From positions 1-22,649 of IMG/VR virus record IMGVR_UViG_3300027881_000086: DNA of 22,649 bases; one strand, given 5' to 3'. The translations under genes were made by a program, and so were the position numbers. The notes under the pieces were generated by a model, which saw only the letters and a list, made by a program, of their open reading frames with translations, was not told the DNA's origin and searched no databases. Shown here piece after piece: positions 591 through 21,577 of the stretch. Each line of letters begins with the position of its first letter. The stretch's first letter is position 1. This stretch comes from a virus.

Positions 591-1075
591 CGCTCAATCT
601 CCAATGGTTCTACCGCTGCGAGCGCCACGACAGCCGTACGCGCGGCTTTCGCTGCGGCGACCAGGTCTTTGCCGTCCTTGGCCAGTTGCACATTGTACGC
701 GGCGAGTGAGGTGCTCTCGGCCTCGTCGGCCTTGGCCGTGGCCTGCGCGCTCTGCCCCGCGGTGGGGTCCCATGGGTCGCTTGCTTCCTGGCGATTGTAG
801 GCCGCAACGAGCTGCCCGAACTCCTTCCCGGTCATCTCCACGCGGGGGTACTTGAACGGTATCCCGTGCTCGGCGTCGCCGGGGACGTGCGTCGCAAACG
901 TAGTGCCAGCCTCGTTGTGTTCCACGCCGAAGCGATGCTCCAGCAGGGTCGCGTCGGGTCGTTGCACGCCGTTGATGTCCGTCGCAAACTTGGGGTGATC
1001 AAACGCCTTACTCACCAGCGCACGGGTCGCCACTGCCTGCGCTTCGGTCGGGTACTGTGCGAGTTTTCGGGTCAT
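587..1075 (-). CDS. Unknown protein downstream of gp48-like fusion
   Basis: This 162-residue protein is not recognised. The ATG at 1075 overlaps the gp48-like stop (ATGA), and its own stop overlaps the next start (ATGA), which supports translation. It has a mixed N-terminal half (AQAVATRALVSKAFDHPKF, FKYPRVEMTGKEFGQLVAAY) and an Ala-rich helical C-terminal half. No signal peptide or membrane segment is seen. It could be a tail fibre assembly helper or a small virion protein; neither can be supported from the sequence. Confidence 0.6.
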   Translation of the reverse strand: MTRKLAQYPTEAQAVATRALVSKAFDHPKFATDINGVQRPDATLLEHRFGVEHNEAGTTFATHVPGDAEHGIPFKYPRVEMTGKEFGQLVAAYNRQEASDPWDPTAGQSAQATAKADEAESTSLAAYNVQLAKDGKDLVAAAKAARTAVVALAAVEPLEIER

Positions 1076-2886
1076 GATAGTGGGCTCCTAGCCGCAAGCC
1101 AAATGTTTAGGTTGACAGCATTCGCATCAGATATCGCTTCATCGTAAACTAGTAAATCCCGGTATGGGCATCCTGCGAAATGCATGAGCCCAACACGCCG
1201 GTGGGCACCCACCGTGCATTGATCCAAGGTGCATGCCCCGACGTCCACATCACCGGCCGTCACAACCCTCACACCGTCTAACCACACATCTACGGTGGTT
1301 CCGTGATTTACAATTACGATGTAATGCCGATCTCCGTCCCTTGCCGCCACAACCACGGCTTTATTCACCGCCGCATCATCGCGTTTTTGGACAGAGAAGT
1401 TCACTCCGTCGGAATAAAAACGAATCGTAGGTTGGTCGTTACCGGAATTTCCACACCCCAGTATTGTCTTAACAGTCGGGGTGTCCGCAACCTGAAACGA
1501 TAGCCCAATCGACCACTCCGCGTCGATACCAGTGAACACGCTTGCAAGACCGTCTGCGGTCCAGAAATCGTCCGTCTCATCCGTCAGCCCAGCCGTCAGT
1601 CCACCAGCGCCACCCCACACCGGTGCCGTAACGCCAGCGTAGCCGGTCGTGGCCTGGACTAGTTGGTTGACGCCCACATTCGCGAGGTTCTCGAACTTGG
1701 TGGCGTGCGGGCACTCGAATAAGCTCACGGCGTCATGCTCCGCCGACCCAGCCGCAGACGCTTGTGTCTGGACTACCAGCGTATTAGCCACCGCCGTCCA
1801 CACCACTGAGATCGGCTCCCACGACACACCGGCCACGCTCGCGATTAATCCTGCGCCTCCGTCCACTAGCCGCGAAGCGGTCGCGTCGACATTGCGCAGC
1901 CCAGCCGTCAGGTAGAGCGTGACGCCGGCCCCCGCATGGCCCTGGTATACGCCGGGATTTGTTGTCCCGTCATAGGCGATTCGCAGATTTTGGGCGCCCT
2001 CGTATGGATCGCTAGTCTCAAGCGACTTCAAGGGCGAACTCACGTCGGTCCAACCTGTATAGCCGGACTCGAAACCGCCGTTCGTCAGGCGCTGTCCGAC
2101 CCCAAGATCATACGATACCTCATACGGCGTAGCGCCAAGGTTCCACCAGGCGACGCAGTTGCCGAAGGCGGCGGGGCCTGGTGTAACCAAAGATACGATC
2201 CACATATTTCCAGGACTGATCTTGAGCATAAGCCGTCTCAGCTCAATGAGCCGCTCCTCTGGGACCAATGCATAGGTCCCAAATTCTTCGCCACCAAAAT
2301 AGATGAAGTTTCTGTATAGATCCTCATCATCTGGCAGCGGCGGGGGCGCCATGCGGTTGAGACTCTCATTAACGATGTAGTAGATCGTGTTCGCGAGAAA
2401 AAAGTCACATCGAGGCGGATCATCGGTGTCAACATCGGCGCACTGGTCCTGGATGGAGTCTTTCGTGCCGTGGCACTGCTCGGTGCCGCTATTCGCTGAC
2501 TCCGTGTAGTCGTGCGGATCGCGGACTACTTCGCCGACCGGATCCCACCAACCATGGTAGTAGACATCAAACCCCGCCGCCTGAATGATGTCCTGCAGGT
2601 ACCGAGGTGACTGACCACCGGTCGCCTGCCATTCAGCTGCAAGCGCAAGCCGACGCTCCGCATCGGTACCGCCGCCCCAGCAACCCAGCTCCTGCTCCCA
2701 CTCGACCAGCTCGTTGGTGGTCTCGGGAAAAATCTCAGCCCAGACGCCGTCGATGAAGTCGCGCGCGGGCTCACTCAACCCGTCGGCAATGCCGTTGAAG
2801 AATTTGCGGATGGTTGAACCGAACGGCAGCGCCCACGTCTTCGTTCGGGGGAGCAGATGCTGGATCTGGCGGAAGTAGATCGTCAT
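1072..2886 (-). CDS. Gp48-like baseplate protein fused to carbohydrate-binding-like and LamG-like domains
   Basis: Residues 1-235 fit the Mu gp48/YmfQ family: HLLPRTKTWALPFGS, FNGIADGLSEPARDFIDGV, TTNELVEWEQELGCWGGGTD, and the closing RLMLKISPGNMWI. Such proteins are usually about 180-200 residues. Here the frame continues to 604 residues. Residues 266-391 begin NGGFESGYTGWT and resemble CBM4/9-type sugar-binding modules. Residues 425-600 (SIGLSFQVADTPTVKTILG, YIVIVNHGTTVDVWLDGVRV, DLLVYDEAIS) resemble a LamG/concanavalin-like lectin. A Cys-rich stretch lies near 138-160. The start follows six bases after the glycosyltransferase stop. Probably a wedge protein carrying receptor-binding domains. 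The domain calls after residue 266 are by eye. Confidence 0.75.
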   Translation of the reverse strand: MTIYFRQIQHLLPRTKTWALPFGSTIRKFFNGIADGLSEPARDFIDGVWAEIFPETTNELVEWEQELGCWGGGTDAERRLALAAEWQATGGQSPRYLQDIIQAAGFDVYYHGWWDPVGEVVRDPHDYTESANSGTEQCHGTKDSIQDQCADVDTDDPPRCDFFLANTIYYIVNESLNRMAPPPLPDDEDLYRNFIYFGGEEFGTYALVPEERLIELRRLMLKISPGNMWIVSLVTPGPAAFGNCVAWWNLGATPYEVSYDLGVGQRLTNGGFESGYTGWTDVSSPLKSLETSDPYEGAQNLRIAYDGTTNPGVYQGHAGAGVTLYLTAGLRNVDATASRLVDGGAGLIASVAGVSWEPISVVWTAVANTLVVQTQASAAGSAEHDAVSLFECPHATKFENLANVGVNQLVQATTGYAGVTAPVWGGAGGLTAGLTDETDDFWTADGLASVFTGIDAEWSIGLSFQVADTPTVKTILGCGNSGNDQPTIRFYSDGVNFSVQKRDDAAVNKAVVVAARDGDRHYIVIVNHGTTVDVWLDGVRVVTAGDVDVGACTLDQCTVGAHRRVGLMHFAGCPYRDLLVYDEAISDANAVNLNIWLAARSPLS

Positions 2887-2892
2887 GATGCA

Positions 2893-3576
2893 TCAGACAC
2901 AGGGAAGTTTTACCGCGCGCCTCGCAACCCCGGGCACCGCCGCCAACTGAGAGCCCGTGGGCTTTGCCTTCGGCGGGCCAAACGGCGCCTCGCCGTAATG
3001 CGTGAGGGCAACACCAAGATGCATCCACAAGCGCAGCCCGGTGTCCAGGCACCGTTTCGAGAACGCAGCGTCTTCGCGGTAGCACGTTGCGCCAGGTCCC
3101 CACTGAAGGATGTCCTGCCACATTGCCGTTACGACTCCAACGCCATCGACGTGGTAGAGTTGCTCCGCCATCGATGCAGCGACTTTCAGCACGGCCGCGC
3201 GCGACACAAGCAGGAAGCCAGCGGGGAGCTTTGTCGCGCGGACCAGCGCCCCCGAGCGCTCTTTGGTCAAGTCGCCAACGATGCGCTCTGACTCGTCCTT
3301 GTAGCAGTACGCTCCTGAAACAACGTCCTTGCCCGCGTCCAGCAGCTGCTGCGCATGGTGCGCGCGCCACCCGATGTCGGTGTCGACCATCAGCATGTGC
3401 GAGTGGCCGCTTGCCAGGAACAACGCGGTCAGCGTGTCGCGATTCTGGGTGATGCTGTTTCCCTCTTGGATGCACGGGACGGCGCCCAGTTTCGCCACAG
3501 CATCGACCAGGCCGAACATGTACTCACGATGAAAGCAACGCGAGTTGGCTGCGGGCGTAGCAACGAATAGACTCAT
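2893..3576 (-). CDS. GT-A-fold glycosyltransferase-like protein
   Basis: This 227-residue protein has the build of a nucleotide-sugar-using glycosyltransferase. Seen are a first strand (SLFVATPAANSRCF), a helix and strand leading to MLMVDTDIGW with a DxD metal motif at 65-67, KDVVSGAYCYK, PAGFLLVSRAAVL, and YREDAAFSKRCLDTG with a Glu-Asp pair at 168-169, followed by His186 and His193. No signal peptide or membrane segment is seen. It lies inside the tail fibre cassette with the start overlapping the upstream fibre stop. It may modify a fibre or a host surface sugar; the acceptor is unknown. The fold call is by pattern only. Confidence 0.7.
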   Translation of the reverse strand: MSLFVATPAANSRCFHREYMFGLVDAVAKLGAVPCIQEGNSITQNRDTLTALFLASGHSHMLMVDTDIGWRAHHAQQLLDAGKDVVSGAYCYKDESERIVGDLTKERSGALVRATKLPAGFLLVSRAAVLKVAASMAEQLYHVDGVGVVTAMWQDILQWGPGATCYREDAAFSKRCLDTGLRLWMHLGVALTHYGEAPFGPPKAKPTGSQLAAVPGVARRAVKLPCV

Positions 3577-4415
3577 GCGACCCGCTTCCAGAACGTCACC
3601 ACGTAGTACGGCATCAGATTCTGTGCTTCGTCGGTGTTGTCGGCGCCTGCCTCGTCGGTCTCGGCCGGGTCAGCCACGCCGGTGCTGCCCGTACCGTCCG
3701 CGCCCGTTGCCCCCGTCCCGTCCGCGCTTGTTTCGGTTTCGCTCGCGCCGCTAGTTGTCTGCTCAGCGACCGGCGGATTCACTGCCTCCAACCAATACCG
3801 CGACCCACTCCCGGACGTCCCGCTCCAGGATGCCACGGCCGTCGTGATTGTCGCGCTCGGGTTGGTGCTCATCAAGTAGAGCGACCCGCTGTCATATGCG
3901 AACGGGACCGGATGCGTGTGAGCGTGCGTATGGGTATGCTCTAGATCGTGCGTGTGACTCGGCCCTGTGTGGGTATGGCTCGGACCCGTGTGCGTGTGCT
4001 CCGCCATGTCATGCTGGTGGGCCTCGACGGAGTGGTTGTGCTGCTTGATCCCGCCTTCTTCTTCCAGGACGTCAAAGTCGGCGTCTCCAATGTCCTGACC
4101 AACCAGGACTCGGCCGTCGGCGACCTTCGTCCACGTGCCGTAGCTGATCTCGTCGTTGGGATCGTCGTCCGTCGCCATCGCGATGATGGCGCCCACTGGC
4201 AACTCAGCCCCCAGGCCAATCTCTTCGTACAGCTCGCATAGGATTGTTGCAATCCCCTTGGCCTGAGCAGCTAGCGCTGGGGCCTGTTCACGAAGCGCCG
4301 CGCGGTCATGGTTCAGATGGTAGCTGATCTGGCGGAAGAGCCTCCACGCGAGTCCGCTCCCGAGATACTGGTCCGAGCTCGGGTCAAGAGTGACAGTACC
4401 GGCGACGCACGCCAT
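3573..4415 (-). CDS. Short tail fibre/collar-type receptor tip with HxH metal-binding repeats
   Basis: This 280-residue protein has an N-terminal helical part, then a collar-like motif (LPVGAIIAMATDDDPNDE, GTWTKVADGRVLVGQDIGD), a histidine-rich stretch at residues 126-168 with HNH, HQH and repeated HTH units, a Thr/Gly/Ala-rich acidic segment at 220-262, and a closing NLMPYYVVTFWKR. HxH motifs in intertwined trimeric fibres such as the T4 gp37 tip bind a row of iron ions, and the closing segment is typical of short tail fibre tips. The gene shares one base with the preceding fibre stop. It is probably a receptor-contacting fibre. Confidence 0.75.
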   Translation of the reverse strand: MACVAGTVTLDPSSDQYLGSGLAWRLFRQISYHLNHDRAALREQAPALAAQAKGIATILCELYEEIGLGAELPVGAIIAMATDDDPNDEISYGTWTKVADGRVLVGQDIGDADFDVLEEEGGIKQHNHSVEAHQHDMAEHTHTGPSHTHTGPSHTHDLEHTHTHAHTHPVPFAYDSGSLYLMSTNPSATITTAVASWSGTSGSGSRYWLEAVNPPVAEQTTSGASETETSADGTGATGADGTGSTGVADPAETDEAGADNTDEAQNLMPYYVVTFWKRVA

Positions 4416-5494
4416 TAGCAGTTTCGAAGCTCAGTAAATGTCGCGTACATCCCAGCGGCAACCCACAGCGAGCCGAGTTCTGCATTCGTGCCACTCTCTG
4501 TTATCATTTCGATGACCATGTACTCGCCGCTCGCGAAGGTCTCCGAGAATCCGTCGATAATGTGCTCGTGGTATGCCTCGTATTCCACTTGGTCACTGGT
4601 ATCCGCCGCTTCCGCCAAAAGTACCTTCGCTCCACTCGTGTTGACCTTGTGCACCGAAAACGTCGTCCGGTTCTCTGGTGGCCAGGTTCCGTGAGGTGGC
4701 CCATCCCACAACACTCTTACCTGGGTAATGGTGTAGTGTACGGACACTCGCACACGCCAATAGGCATGCGCAGCGGTGGCCACGCCGCATTTCCAGCCAA
4801 GCCCGTCATAATCCGACCAGTTGGAATTATTCGCAAACGAGACTTGACCATCGCATGGGAACCACTGCGACCGTGAAGAAAGCTGTGGGTAGTTGCTGGT
4901 GCCCTCGAGCGTCAGAGTCCCGCCTTCTTGGATCGTGATCGCGGCTGTGGCGGTCGCAGTGACTGTGCCGTCAAGCTGCACTGTGCTCCCGGAATACGCG
5001 CGCAGCTGCGCTCCGGACAGCAGGTTGATGTTGCTCCCAGATTCGGCGTCCAGGATGGACCCCGACTTCAGGTTCAGCTCGCCGCCGGTGTTGACGTTGA
5101 TGAACGCCCCGGTGTTAACCTCGACGGTTCCACCGCTGTCAACATCGACCGTTCCGACAACCGTAATCGTGCCACCGTCCAGGACATCGATCTCGCCGCC
5201 GCTGCCGATGATGATTTGGGCGCCAGACAGGACCGAAAACACGTGGCCGCTTTGCAGGCGCCTGAGTGCAACGAAATACTGACTCGAGGATCCCGAGTCA
5301 GGGGTTCCCGAGGGGGTTGCGCCGTCCGCGCCTAGGATCGCTTGCAGGAAACCATGTAGATCCTGCATCCACGCTTCTTCAAGCGGAGTCCCATCCGTTG
5401 CGCCTGGGGCGCTACGGTTGCGCGGCTTCCCGTACGGGTAAGCCCCGTCGGTGTCGATTTGCCCGGGATACTTTACGGTCAGGGAGATTGCCAT
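4415..5494 (-). CDS. Tail fibre protein with octad-repeat beta-helix
   Basis: The N-terminal part (LTVKYPGQIDTDGAYPYG, TPLEEAWMQDLHGFLQAIL, TPSGTPDSGSSSQYFVAL) is typical of tail fibre and tail-tip proteins in proteobacterial phages and probably attaches to the baseplate. Residues 90-197 are a regular run of eight-residue repeats of the form S/T-G-x-x-I/V/L-x-V/L-x, about 13 units, two of them two residues short. This resembles the octapeptide triple beta-helix of the T4 gp5 needle. The C-terminal 150 residues form a separate domain with many aromatic residues, perhaps for receptor binding. The stop overlaps the next gene by one base. Confidence 0.75.
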   Translation of the reverse strand: MAISLTVKYPGQIDTDGAYPYGKPRNRSAPGATDGTPLEEAWMQDLHGFLQAILGADGATPSGTPDSGSSSQYFVALRRLQSGHVFSVLSGAQIIIGSGGEIDVLDGGTITVVGTVDVDSGGTVEVNTGAFINVNTGGELNLKSGSILDAESGSNINLLSGAQLRAYSGSTVQLDGTVTATATAAITIQEGGTLTLEGTSNYPQLSSRSQWFPCDGQVSFANNSNWSDYDGLGWKCGVATAAHAYWRVRVSVHYTITQVRVLWDGPPHGTWPPENRTTFSVHKVNTSGAKVLLAEAADTSDQVEYEAYHEHIIDGFSETFASGEYMVIEMITESGTNAELGSLWVAAGMYATFTELRNC

Positions 5495-5495
5495 G

Positions 5496-6719
5496 CTACT
5501 CCGCCTCGTAGATGGTCGGGGTGCTGTTGAGCTTCGTCTTTTCGCCGGCGCTCAGAACGTATGTGTCGATCGGTGAGCCGTAGCCCGCTGGCTGCATTTC
5601 CACGCTGGTCACTGTCCCCCCGTGGGCTGACACAATCGAAATGATGATCCCGCCGATGTCAGTGGCGATAGCCCTGTCCTTGCGCGACAGTGCATCGAGG
5701 CCCAGAAGCCAGGGCTCGCGCTCGAGGAAATACTCCTCGCACGCATCCTCCACCGCCGTCTGACATTCCGAGTCCGTGTCTGCTGGCACGTCCCAACCGT
5801 TGATAACGACTTCGAGGCCTGTGCGCGTGATTGCCGACATGTTGAGCGTTTCGACGCCGGCCGGCAGACGACTCGCCAACCCATTGACGTCCAGCCTGAT
5901 TGAGGCTTCGACCGCGTCGAGCTGTGCCTGCGTTGGGATTCCGTCTGGATCCCCCGAGCTTTCGGGCGTCGCCTCGACGTAGATATCCATCTCACCGGGC
6001 GTAGCCGCCTTGTAGGGGTAGACGTGAATGATCCCGGTGACCTCTTCGCCCCAAATTCGGTAGTCCGTCGGGGCGCCCCCCTGCGGCCGGTTGCGTCTGC
6101 GACCGATGACGCGGCCGCGGTAGACTTCGACTGCCTCCGCGTCGGCACCCTGTACCGCGGTTGAGATGACCACCACGTCTCGGGAGACGTTCGGGGGCGT
6201 ACTGACGAACCGGACAACGTCGCTATCCTCCAGGTTCCCAACGTCTCCGATTCCGTTGGTGCCCTCAGGATCAGACACCGCCCTCATAACCGCGTTCACC
6301 GTTGCCGCGTCGAGGGGAACCGCGTACGTCGTGATGTAGATGACGCCGCTTTCGCTTCGCAGCAGTTGCGTCCCAGCAGCTAGAGAACCAGTCTGGTTTG
6401 TGACGGTGATTGCGATGTGAAGCTCGGCACGCGTGCCGGCCGCAGGATCACCAACTCCGAGCAGCCTGCCGTGCTCGGTGAGGGGGCGCAGGACCTTGCT
6501 GCCGATCGTCACCTCATCGTTGGTGCAGTACCGAACGAAGATCTGAAAGAAGATGAATTGCGCGTAGTGCCACAGCAAGACGTAAACACCCGCCAACACC
6601 TTCGCGAGCACGCGCGAAAATGCCTTCGGTAGCAGCGGGATCGTCTGCGACAGCTGCGCTTCCAGACCGGCGACGATCTGGTCACTGATTGCTGTGGTGG
6701 TCGGCGCAGTGTAGGCCAT
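5496..6719 (-). CDS. Baseplate J-like wedge protein (Mu gp47-like)
   Basis: This 407-residue protein is of the Baseplate_J family, the T4 gp6 counterpart that builds the baseplate ring. Seen are an N-terminal helical region (ISDQIVAGLEAQLSQTIPLL, LAGVYVLLWHYAQFIF), the HGRLLGVGDPAAGTRAEL segment, a strand region with GTQLLRSESGVIYITT, then YRGRVIGRRRNRPQGGAPTD and YRIWGEEVTGIIHVYPY, the family core with the Gly-Ala-Pro-x-Asp-Tyr motif. The C-terminal part contains IGGIIISIVSAHGGTVTSV. It is slightly longer than Mu gp47. The next gene is a fibre gene, not the usual gp48. Confidence 0.9.
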   Translation of the reverse strand: MAYTAPTTTAISDQIVAGLEAQLSQTIPLLPKAFSRVLAKVLAGVYVLLWHYAQFIFFQIFVRYCTNDEVTIGSKVLRPLTEHGRLLGVGDPAAGTRAELHIAITVTNQTGSLAAGTQLLRSESGVIYITTYAVPLDAATVNAVMRAVSDPEGTNGIGDVGNLEDSDVVRFVSTPPNVSRDVVVISTAVQGADAEAVEVYRGRVIGRRRNRPQGGAPTDYRIWGEEVTGIIHVYPYKAATPGEMDIYVEATPESSGDPDGIPTQAQLDAVEASIRLDVNGLASRLPAGVETLNMSAITRTGLEVVINGWDVPADTDSECQTAVEDACEEYFLEREPWLLGLDALSRKDRAIATDIGGIIISIVSAHGGTVTSVEMQPAGYGSPIDTYVLSAGEKTKLNSTPTIYEAE

Positions 6720-6723
6720 GCTT

Positions 6724-6999
6724 CTACTTTTTGAGACCGACGAACGTCATCCCTGCCGTCATGTCAGTAGCGTTGATTCGCGCTGGTCGGATCGGAAGGA
6801 ATTGGCCCGAGACGCCATAGAACGTGCCGAGGCTTCCGTCTTCGCTCACTGCCACGAAGGAGCCGCCAGTCGCCGACGAGACCTGTATGGCTTTCGGAAT
6901 GAAGGTGAAGTCCACGGTGTCTGACGGCGTTAGGTTCGCCCAATCGACACCCTGACTCGTGAGTTCATCCTGATCTGTCCAGTTCTTCGTGGCTGCCAT
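6724..6999 (-). CDS. Small virion-associated protein with decoration-type repeat strand pattern
   Basis: This 91-residue protein has a hydrophilic N-terminus (TKNWTDQDELTSQGVDWANL) and a beta-rich body: PKAIQVSSATGGSFVAVSEDG, then TFYGVSGQFLPIRPARINAT. The second half fits a common pattern of small phage virion proteins with G-x-LPIRxxRVNAT, seen from memory in many prophage structural regions and of unknown exact role. The start overlaps the gp46 stop by one base and gp47 follows four bases later, so it is co-translated with the baseplate wedge pair. Mu has no gene here. Confidence 0.65.
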   Translation of the reverse strand: MAATKNWTDQDELTSQGVDWANLTPSDTVDFTFIPKAIQVSSATGGSFVAVSEDGSLGTFYGVSGQFLPIRPARINATDMTAGMTFVGLKK

Positions 7000-7433
7000 T
7001 AGAGTTCCTCTTCTCGCGTCACGCTGAAGTCAAAGGGGATTCGTTCGCTGTCGATCGTCGCCTCAATCTCAAGGTCTACCTTGTCCACTTTCGGCATCGT
7101 CGCTTCGATCGTCGCCGCATCGATGATGGTCTCCGACATCCAAGCCAAGTCGCGTCCCGCCGCATCCTCGAAGGTCCCGAGATTCGCTGGGATGAGAGGG
7201 GCCGACTTCAGAGAAAATTGTGTCTCCGACCGATACGTCTTGGCGGGGTCGGTCTCATCCATGTTCCCCCACCACTGCGCGCGCGCGTCGCCGTCAAGCC
7301 CGCTGTCGTCGTCGTTACCGCCAAACAGGCTGAGGTAGACGGCCGCATACTTGCCGTCGCAGAGAACCAGCTGACCGTTCTCCATGACGATCTCGCCGCC
7401 GTCGGGCGTGCAGTAGAAAAGAGCGTCACTCAT
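6999..7433 (-). CDS. Baseplate wedge protein (Mu gp46-like)
   Basis: This 144-residue protein matches the gp46 family in length and in the signature AVYLSLFGGNDDDSGLDG followed by ARAQWWGN, then the typical closing part with LAWM and DKVDLEIEATI. Gp46-type proteins, related to T4 gp25, link the baseplate hub region to the sheath. The start overlaps the upstream stop as ATGA and the next gene begins at the stop with a one-base overlap. Confidence 0.88.
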   Translation of the reverse strand: MSDALFYCTPDGGEIVMENGQLVLCDGKYAAVYLSLFGGNDDDSGLDGDARAQWWGNMDETDPAKTYRSETQFSLKSAPLIPANLGTFEDAAGRDLAWMSETIIDAATIEATMPKVDKVDLEIEATIDSERIPFDFSVTREEEL

Positions 7434-8470
7434 GTCGCGAAGATGTTTCCGAACGAGGTCATGTTGGCTGGCGTCGACGCAATCACGAGTCCGTGCACGG
7501 TGGCGGTCGGCCCGCTACCGTTCGGGACCCCATCCCAAATCGCCTCAGCGAACTCGGGCCCGAGCTGCGCCGCCTGCCCCGAGTAGGTCCACACCGACAG
7601 CCCCCCGGCGCTGAGTTGGATCTGCAGATCGGCGATTAGATCGATCAGCACATCGAGCTGAAGCTCGATGCCACCGATCGCGACGTCAAGATCCGCGCGG
7701 ACATTGACCATGTTGCCGAGCATCACCTCGAGGTCGAGCCCGAGGCCGACGTCCAGCAGCACCTGAGGGGCCGGCAGGTTGAAGCCGAGGCTGACTTGGA
7801 TTTGCGCCTCGATGCTCGCCTTGAGTCCCCGTAGCTGGAGAATGAACGCCCGGAGCCTGACCATGAGCGTCCCGAGCCCTGTGCTCCACTCCCAGCCACC
7901 GAGCTCCCCGAGGTACTGGAGGTCGCCCGCGGCGCCGGTGGCGAACGACTCGCCGAACGCTGACCAGCTGGCCGGGTTCTCTGTGGCGATGAGCGTCGCG
8001 GAGATTTCGGAGGCCGGGGCCGTCCTGCCCCATCCCCCGGGCGTGGCCGCCCTCAGGGACGTCCCGAACCCGCGGGCGCTACCGGAGTAGGACCAGCCGG
8101 AAAGGCTCCCCACGGCCAAGCCAGCCTCCAGGGGGGCGACTATCGCGAGCGCTGCCGCCAGCTTCAAATTCACGAGGCCGAGCTCGATGGTCAGATCCGC
8201 GTTCGCGTCGGCCGAAACCGAAACCCAGCCCGCTGGGTTGAACATCGCCGCCAGCTCGGCAAGGTTCAGATGAGCCGCCAGCTCGGCCGCGTACGATACC
8301 GCCACCGGTGGGAAGTCGAGCCCTATTTCCAGCTTGGCTGCCACCGCTGGCACCAGCCCCGTGATGTCTGCCTGCAACTTCGCAACCTCGAGCTGTAGAG
8401 CCGGGATATCCGCTGACAGTCCGATGTTCAGAGCAGACACGGGCAAGCTACCCGCGTAGTTGATCGTCAC
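7430..8470 (-). CDS. A/L/G-rich structural protein with two-copy internal duplication, unknown function
   Basis: I do not recognise this 346-residue protein. It consists of two similar halves. Each has a long Ala/Leu/Gly-rich stretch with amphipathic pattern (about residues 1-120 and 195-290), followed by a module of about 57 residues (123-180 and 291-346). The modules share the order W-[ST]-YSG, GxxF/L, [AS]TLIAT or GLVIAS, P-A-x-W/M and FGxxFAT. No signal peptide is seen. The start overlaps the spike stop (ATGA) and its stop overlaps the gp46-like start (ATGA), so it is fully embedded in the baseplate operon at a junction where Mu has no gene. A baseplate-periphery or spike-associated role is inferred. 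Confidence 0.7.
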   Translation of the reverse strand: MTINYAGSLPVSALNIGLSADIPALQLEVAKLQADITGLVPAVAAKLEIGLDFPPVAVSYAAELAAHLNLAELAAMFNPAGWVSVSADANADLTIELGLVNLKLAAALAIVAPLEAGLAVGSLSGWSYSGSARGFGTSLRAATPGGWGRTAPASEISATLIATENPASWSAFGESFATGAAGDLQYLGELGGWEWSTGLGTLMVRLRAFILQLRGLKASIEAQIQVSLGFNLPAPQVLLDVGLGLDLEVMLGNMVNVRADLDVAIGGIELQLDVLIDLIADLQIQLSAGGLSVWTYSGQAAQLGPEFAEAIWDGVPNGSGPTATVHGLVIASTPANMTSFGNIFAT

Positions 8471-17559: not shown

Positions 17560-18507
17560 TCAGCTGAAGTCGTACTCGACGGACATGACCACTTCGCCGT
17601 CGACCTCGGTGTGCACTCTTGCGAGGATGCCCCCGCACGGAATCAACTCGACCTGTGGCGACAGCTCGTTGAACGTCACAGCAAGCACGAGCCGCATTCC
17701 TATGATGTTCTGCACAGGTCTGTCCGCGTCGCTTGGCTGGAACGCCGTGATACTATCGGGGAAGCGCTTGCCCACGGTTCCAGACAGACCCAGTTCCATG
17801 TACTCGGCGGCCATCAGGATGTTCCGCACCAGCCGCATAGCGCGGTGCGCCTCCGTGGAGGCTTTCAGATCTGCCGGGATGTGGCCGGCCTGAGTTGCTT
17901 CCGCCTTCCCGTAGCCGTAGACGTCCACATGGATTTTGCCATCCGCAGCCTGGCGCTCGATGTAGTCGCTATTGGACTCGTTGAACGTCTCGCGGTCGAA
18001 CCACACGTTGACGATGGGGGCGGCGTCTTCTGTTCCACCGGTTGGACTCGTCAGGAACGCGCCCCACGGTGCGGTGCGTTCTTTGTAGACGCGCAGCCTC
18101 CAGAGCTCAGGATCCGGAGACCACACAGTCAGGACATCCCCGGTGTCCCATGGCTCACTGACAGCGGTTACTGCGAAGGTGATGCCCAGGGTTGGGAATT
18201 CCAGATCGTCGTCCGCCGCGGTAGTGGTGCATGTGCCCTCGACGCCACTCGGCGCAACGCAGGTCCACGTCCCCACCCCGGCCGTCAGTGTCCCGGCGGT
18301 TGCGATGTATTCGCCGTCCTCGAGCCTGGCGCCGCTGTCCTTCTCCGCGGTCGCGGTGTAGTCGCTGTCGTCTGCGCGCGTTGGTGTTGCCGCTACGGAC
18401 GCCGCAAAAGTCTGCTGCTGGGCAGTCTCGACCGCGAGGATCGCCGCAATCGCGTCACGAACCAGTTCGGCATTGTCCTTCTTCGCGATGAGCGCAGCGA
18501 TCGTCAT
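17560..18507 (-). CDS. Tail terminator/completion protein candidate with inserted domain
   Basis: The ATG at 18507 overlaps the preceding stop (ATGA) and gives 315 residues; the open frame runs further upstream but that part is a shadow of the previous gene. The N-terminal helix MTIAALIAKKDNAELVRDAI is followed at about residues 45-129 by the domain also found in the decoration protein. The remaining part contains APIVNVWFDRETFNE, KIHVDVYGYG and a helix EAHRAMRLVRNILMAAEY, a pattern that fits tail-terminator or gp37-like proteins lying before the sheath in Mu-like phages. Without the insert it would be about 230 residues. The function is inferred mainly from position. Confidence 0.6.
   Translation of the reverse strand: MTIAALIAKKDNAELVRDAIAAILAVETAQQQTFAASVAATPTRADDSDYTATAEKDSGARLEDGEYIATAGTLTAGVGTWTCVAPSGVEGTCTTTAADDDLEFPTLGITFAVTAVSEPWDTGDVLTVWSPDPELWRLRVYKERTAPWGAFLTSPTGGTEDAAPIVNVWFDRETFNESNSDYIERQAADGKIHVDVYGYGKAEATQAGHIPADLKASTEAHRAMRLVRNILMAAEYMELGLSGTVGKRFPDSITAFQPSDADRPVQNIIGMRLVLAVTFNELSPQVELIPCGGILARVHTEVDGEVVMSVEYDFS
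18194..18222 (-). repeat. Identical 29-bp repeat, copy in tail-terminator candidate
   Basis: This stretch is identical to 21237-21265 in the decoration gene and is in the same frame, encoding TAADDDLEF and the start of a Pro codon from residue 96. Similarity in the surrounding protein domain extends roughly 40 residues on either side, but the DNA outside the repeat has diverged. Confidence 0.9.
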
Positions 18508-20872: not shown

Positions 20873-21577
20873 TTAGCTGGCTCCGTTGTCCAACACGGAC
20901 ACGTCGGTGTTCGGCAGCGCGGTGAAGCCAGCGTTAGCCAGCAGATCCATAACGTGATCGCTCACGTTCGTTGCGTCACCATCGGCATCGATGACCAGCT
21001 TGTCTTGGCGGACCACGCCTCCGATGAGCGCGCTGCAAGCCACGGAACCGCCGCCCGTCTGTACGGACGCGTACGGTAGGATCGCAACAGGAACCTGTGC
21101 GCCGTTGGTGCCGTCGATGTCGTAGCACACCAACGGCGTTCCGGACTGGGCGGCAACAGTCGCCGTCACAACGTCCGCAGTAACGAAATCCGTTTCGGAT
21201 CCAGGATCCGTGACAGTGATCGTGATTCCGAGATTCGGGAATTCCAGATCGTCGTCCGCCGCGGTGCTGGTGAAATCTTCATGCTGGCCATCCGGGGCCA
21301 CCATCGTCCACGTACCGACGCCTGAACTCAGGGTTCCGGCCGTCGCCACGTAGGCCCCGGCCTGCAAGGTTCGGCCGGCGTCTGTAGCGCCAGCAACGGT
21401 CCAGACGCCCGTGCCCGTGATTGCCGCGGCAATCGTGTTGTTGATCAACAGGCGAGCAAGAATCGTATTCTGTGCCCATGTGTCTGCGCCGGTGAACAGC
21501 AGCGTGTCTCCCCGATACTCGGGGTTCTTGAGGATGCAGCTCGGAGACTGATCGCAAGTGGTAACTGTCATTGCCAT
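20873..21577 (-). CDS. Head decoration protein (lambda gpD-like) with inserted domain
   Basis: This is probably the capsid-stabilising decoration protein that binds the outside of the expanded shell. Flanking segments fit the gpD-type pattern: an N-terminal stretch YRGDTLLFTGADTWAQNTIL, then after the insertion TPLVCYDIDGTNGAQVPVAIL and a C-terminal GVVRQDKLVID. Lambda gpD is about 110 residues; this protein has 234. The extra length is explained by an insertion at about residues 57-142 containing AGTLSSGVGTW, TAADDDLEFP and VTADVVTATV, which recurs in two other proteins of this window. The start at 21577 follows AAGGA eight bases upstream. It sits between the scaffold and capsid genes, the normal place for this function. 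Confidence 0.8.
   Translation of the reverse strand: MAMTVTTCDQSPSCILKNPEYRGDTLLFTGADTWAQNTILARLLINNTIAAAITGTGVWTVAGATDAGRTLQAGAYVATAGTLSSGVGTWTMVAPDGQHEDFTSTAADDDLEFPNLGITITVTDPGSETDFVTADVVTATVAAQSGTPLVCYDIDGTNGAQVPVAILPYASVQTGGGSVACSALIGGVVRQDKLVIDADGDATNVSDHVMDLLANAGFTALPNTDVSVLDNGAS
21237..21265 (-). repeat. Identical 29-bp repeat, copy in decoration gene
   Basis: These 29 bases match 18194-18222 exactly and are read in the same frame, encoding TAADDDLEF and the first bases of a Pro codon at residues 105-114 of the decoration protein. The rest of the surrounding domain is similar at protein level but diverged at DNA level. An exact stretch this long between two genes of different function points to duplication or gene conversion. 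Confidence 0.9.

Follow-up and report, generated by a model that had tools for sequence, protein, structure and literature searches.

A gp48-type baseplate wedge protein with a fused lectin-like module in a Mu-like phage from a metagenome

The stretch of DNA analysed here (the window) spans all 22,649 nucleotides of IMG/VR record IMGVR_UViG_3300027881_000086. On its minus strand, at positions 1072-2886, a single uninterrupted open frame of 604 residues joins a gp48-type baseplate wedge part to a CBM4/9-like stretch and a LamG-like domain. The reading that we prefer, and hold to be reasonably likely, is that this gene encodes a Mu-like contractile-tail wedge protein (BW3, gp48 type) with a C-terminally fused adhesin module, consisting of a LamG/ConA-like lectin with the CBM4/9-like part in front. 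The module would have been taken from the adjoining host-recognition genes and would add short-range, six-fold glycan binding. The fusion is known from one metagenomic contig, and a whole-protein scan of viral contigs returned no close relative of the entire fusion.

Almost every gene of the window lies on the minus strand, and together the genes constitute the structural module of a phage with a Mu-like contractile tail: a sheath and a tape measure (both assigned by eye, on position and sequence), relatives of gp45 to gp48, fibre genes and small open frames at the end. Relatives of gp46 (6999-7433) and of gp47 (5496-6719, minus strand; baseplate J or BW2, PF04865 at 1e-22 and phrog_6 at 3e-27) lie in the same baseplate module as the window gp48, with fibre genes between, an arrangement also seen in a number of related contigs. 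These fibre-type genes stand between gp47 and gp48 in the window (3573-5494) and in L010-L030; in most other loci gp48 comes directly after gp47. Elsewhere in the module, an 80-aa domain with 55% identity (ATAGTL.GVGTWT...TAADDDLEFP.LGIT) is common to the proteins encoded at 20873-21577 and 17560-18507 (both minus strand), as if it were a mobile decoration domain within the genome. A 346-aa gene at 7430-8470 (minus strand), between the gp45 and gp46 relatives, has a homolog among the loci only in L027 (1036-2220). Cys-rich lipoprotein-like genes with GAGG-type low-complexity stretches and a myxobacterial lipoprotein look were seen beside the tail module of three relatives (L101:10820-12220, L011:10422-11138, L112:5028-5981). 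Together with the presence of L090 in a Myxococcota MAG, these genes hint at Myxococcota hosts.

Profiles, and alignments with phage and IMG/VR relatives, assign residues 1-236 (2179-2886, minus strand) to the Mu gp48-type baseplate wedge proteins (BW3). Residues 2-236 match phrog_4920 at E = 2.6e-26 and phrog_203, "baseplate wedge subunit", at 3e-12; their match to PF10076 (Mu gp48), at 2.7e-6, is under the gathering score. The best PDB sequence match of this part is the 180-aa chain of 9ki1, "Baseplate protein gp48", a weak one with E = 0.061. A search of genome contigs for gp48 relatives yielded one only, and looking for the CBM in the genome concerned gave no match. In named Acinetobacter, Shewanella, Oceanospirillum, Aeromonas and Vibrio phages, annotated homologs stop at the position that corresponds to residue ~236 of the window protein. 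Since they are 240-275 aa long, the first-pass annotation, which had put gp48-type proteins at usually under 200 residues, was right that they are shorter than the window protein, with a figure slightly low for this branch.

The frame itself agrees with the earlier proposal that gp48 is here extended to 604 residues within one gene. Its 604 codons hold no internal stop, and a 366-codon open extension would arise by chance with p ~ 1e-5 at this composition. Packing is tight: a few bases separate the gene from the preceding one, its stop codon overlaps the following start, and a Shine-Dalgarno-like AGGAG lies within its last codons. The stop/start overlap and this site tie the gene to its neighbour, and the join falls in frame at the end of gp48. 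These observations argue against an assembly artefact in which gp48 was joined to the downstream adhesin of another phage, as does the occurrence of gp48 with other C-terminal domains on other contigs (L016, L102, L011). Such an artefact is considered very unlikely, even though the fusion is seen in a single contig and in no close relative, and GC3 shifts from 0.69 to 0.57 along the gene. It also seems highly improbable that the C-terminal part is made as a separate product as well, whether from an internal GTG or TTG codon or through processing of the full-length protein. From residue 228 to residue 568 the frame has no ATG, so that a C-terminal gene of its own, which the first-pass annotation had considered as a possible objection, would need a GTG or TTG start. 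Codons of both kinds are present in frame, and relatives do make the module as a protein of its own; however, inspection by eye showed no Shine-Dalgarno-like site ahead of the possible starts close to the junction.

The segment that follows the wedge part, residues 237-264 (AFGNCVAWWNLGATPYEVSYDLGV...; 2095-2178, minus strand), resembles by eye the LLFWCTAD and AAWYHW segments that precede a nested insert in L097 and L101, and is possibly the first LamG strand ahead of an inserted CBM. The CBM4/9-like stretch itself covers residues 265-388 (1723-2094, minus strand) and opens with LTNGGFESGYTGW, a motif resembling the N-terminal signature of CBM4/9-type domains. PF02018 aligns over positions 1-44 of its 136, at E = 0.019-0.031, which is below gathering. 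Among PDB sequences the nearest is the beginning of an alginate lyase (4q8k, E = 0.2); pLDDT is about 30 in both AF2 models, and a CBM-only scan of viral contigs found no relative. A putative CBM4/9-type domain is a likely reading of this stretch. It is placed between CVAWWNLG and FENLANVG, which by eye is comparable to the position of the nested domain in L112, L101 and L097, and it may perhaps be inserted into the LamG domain.

Domain search and structure prediction past residue 240 revealed a ConA/LamG-like jelly-roll at residues 422-604 (1075-1623, minus strand), a fold predicted with confidence from AF2 and VIA matches. Per-block pLDDT is mostly 63-89 from residue ~445 on in the AF2 model built on an alignment of LamG-type rows and repeat segments of related phage proteins; AF2 without an alignment gave an uninformative model. 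VIA-align Z values reach 15.9, with pentraxins, sialidase lectin domains and CBM40 as matches, and the jelly-roll occupies model residues 186-368, with a Foldseek E of ~1e-8. In BFVD the best match, with 25% identity, is a phage protein named "Concanavalin A-like lectin/glucanases". No direct Pfam match to LamG was obtained for the window protein; its homolog in L101 reaches PF13385 at 6.8e-5, under gathering. Comparison of the C-terminal part with phage, plasmid and PDB sequences gave no convincing match. Of the layout first proposed, the gp48 and LamG-like parts thus stand, by homology and a confident fold, and the CBM4/9-like part between them is a weak candidate (Pfam E of ~0.02). Matches to CBM40, pentraxins and a clostridial neurotoxin binding domain reflect a common ConA-like fold at about 8-19% identity (about 10% for the neurotoxin) and carry no information on whether the protein is toxic or binds sialic acid. 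Many LamG or jelly-roll domains bind proteins or are structural rather than sugar-binding. Judged from its predicted fold, the C-terminal part probably binds sugar.

As the first-pass annotation had held, other gp48 proteins do without such an extension. The extra part (residues 237-604) is missing from nearly all of 133 other loci, where gp48 ends within about 30 residues either side of the residue-236 equivalent. Extensions of more than 100 residues are found in two of 134 gp48 genes, the window included, and extensions of at least 60 in six: 370 in the window, about 250 (249-251) in L016, at least 84 in L102, which runs off its contig, 73 in L011, 64 in L028 and 63 in L069. These counts come from stop-to-stop frames and are taken from where the profile match ends. 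The addition in L016 is a domain different from that of the window; the extensions of L016 and L102 bear a likeness to LamG by eye only, which profile tests did not confirm. Because the additions of these other gp48 proteins differ, the C-terminus of gp48 has been extended more than once. In a quick gp48 tree, the extended forms require at least two to three changes, and L016 is placed in a starred group (99) whose remaining members have no extension. Variable tails of 20-30 aa with short repeats such as TTESG..FTTESGDRL or GFGSGPMGTxELG are frequent at the gp48 C-terminus in this clade and were noticed in L017, L018, L023, L024, L026, L029, L030, L098 and L101. The reverse of the window arrangement is seen at L125:4441-6711 (plus strand), where the fusion is N-terminal: a single frame of about 741 aa runs from a beta-helix-like fibre sequence into gp48.

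The likely source of the module is indicated by the genes of sister phages. LamG homologs (profile A5) occur in separate proteins 1.1-2.1 kb downstream of gp48 in L112, L101, L097 and L134, and multi-LamG proteins lie downstream of gp48 in L010 and L015. These tail-tip proteins of L101, L112, L097 and L134, and UOF77315.1 of MW202476.1, have a homologous LamG module, as in the window. Unlike it, the sister-phage modules are genes of their own without a gp48 fusion, and the domain apparently nested near the LamG start in L112, L101 and L097 differs from that of the window. The L101 protein has a homolog at 98% coverage adjoining an annotated "putative tail fiber" in MW202476.1, an unrelated siphophage. 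Scans with the L112 or the L101 LamG protein as sole query retrieved nothing beyond the query itself, and the LamG alignment was too divergent for use as a scan query.

The gp48 closest to that of the window belongs to L011 (51% identity, a starred pair), which has the same, unusual gene order: gp46, a 91-aa gene, gp47, fibre, collar, putative glycosyltransferase, gp48. This gp48 ends in a ~70-aa domain different from the window's extension; identity is 60% with a domain of the next gene and 43% with the N-terminal domain of the second gene on (545 aa, with a GDSL hydrolase domain). In L011, therefore, the end of gp48 has sequence in common with the adhesin-like genes that immediately follow. 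Capture of the module could have proceeded by recombination or deletion between gp48 and adjoining adhesin genes, or by transfer. GC3 is 0.57 in the LamG part of the fusion gene versus 0.69-0.77 in nearby genes, which suggests transfer and fits a recent acquisition of this part.

The same comparison bears on whether the C-terminal domains are purely structural, decorating or caging the baseplate or anchoring an extra fibre by domain-domain contact, with no host sugar bound. A domain common to the L011 gp48 and the proteins that follow is what would be expected of a possible anchor, and wedge extensions are able to form structures, such as the spike cage of Alg11. However, the LamG modules of sister phages reside in separate proteins among variable tail-tip genes, and the domain is missing from nearly all other gp48 proteins, L016 using a different one. 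A structural role is therefore viewed as unlikely, and host glycan binding by the fused module remains our preferred reading.

On this preferred reading, the N-terminal part would assemble into the wedge as in Mu, and the C-terminal parts would hang around the baseplate as up to six lectin-like arms, one per wedge. The first-pass annotation had placed the sugar-binding domains on the wedge instead of on a separate fibre. That they stand in for a separate fibre does not hold, as the same module encodes a 359-aa tail fibre-type protein (4415-5494, minus strand; phrog_26525 tail fiber at 1.1e-17), with relatives in nearly all related loci, and a 280-aa collar/Gp10_C-type fibre protein with HxH repeats (3573-4415, minus strand; PF21939 at 4.9e-12). 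Since these genes adjoin gp48, the arms would supplement the fibres rather than replace them. Separate fibres would make the first contact, the arms would then bind a host surface glycan at short range, and such contacts could help irreversible attachment. Between the fibre genes and gp48 lies a putative GT-A-like glycosyltransferase (2893-3576, minus strand; phrog_1574, of unknown function, at 6.1e-9; VDTDIGW motif by eye), which among the loci is kept only in the sister L011 (L011:4940-5569) and might modify the fibres.

A wider and rather doubtful proposal is that the gp48 C-terminus is a recurrent docking point in this clade, where lectin, Ig-like and other adhesin modules swap between tail-tip genes and the wedge. 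The result would be a six-fold, wedge-borne lectin ring which, on binding, could exert a pull on the wedge and contribute directly to triggering contraction. If the preferred reading of the fusion is true, receptor recognition can shift from detachable fibres to the contraction-triggering wedge. The fusion would also allow one lectin-like module to be studied in both settings, fibre-type gene and wedge, and would offer an evolutionary route to re-targeting of the baseplate.

The first-pass annotation knew of no standard design of this kind. CBM folds on wedge proteins are in fact already known (Vp4 Gp119, Alg11), the former with cell binding (PMC11406892); a LamG domain on a wedge protein was not found in a literature search of limited coverage. 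Alg11 of the AlgoCIS contractile system is a wedge protein with two CBM folds and a proposed role in attachment; it differs in that these domains lie within the chain and cage the spike (PMC8894135). In Mu, each wedge has one gp48 (BW3), placed at the rim of the baseplate, and the trimeric fibre is docked by one of its loops (PMC11915804). The window protein has the same N-terminal family (PF10076), a contractile tail module and gp46 and gp47 relatives alongside; Mu gp48 differs in docking a separate trimeric fibre by its loop, and the paper describes no lectin-like extension (PMC11915804). Vp4 Gp119, of a Bacillus cereus Herelleviridae phage, is a BW3 with two CBM folds, and its GFP fusion decorated host cells (PMC11406892). 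Compared by its published description, it comes from a different phage family with a Gram-positive host and has an A511 gp105-like N-terminal part; its added domains are CBM16-like and Xyn10B-like, with LamG not reported (PMC11406892). The likeness lies in the architecture: the homolog in a related phage, Deep-Blue Gp177, is without CBMs (PMC11406892), so that in Vp4, as is proposed for the window, carbohydrate-binding-type folds have been added to a BW3 whose relatives lack them.
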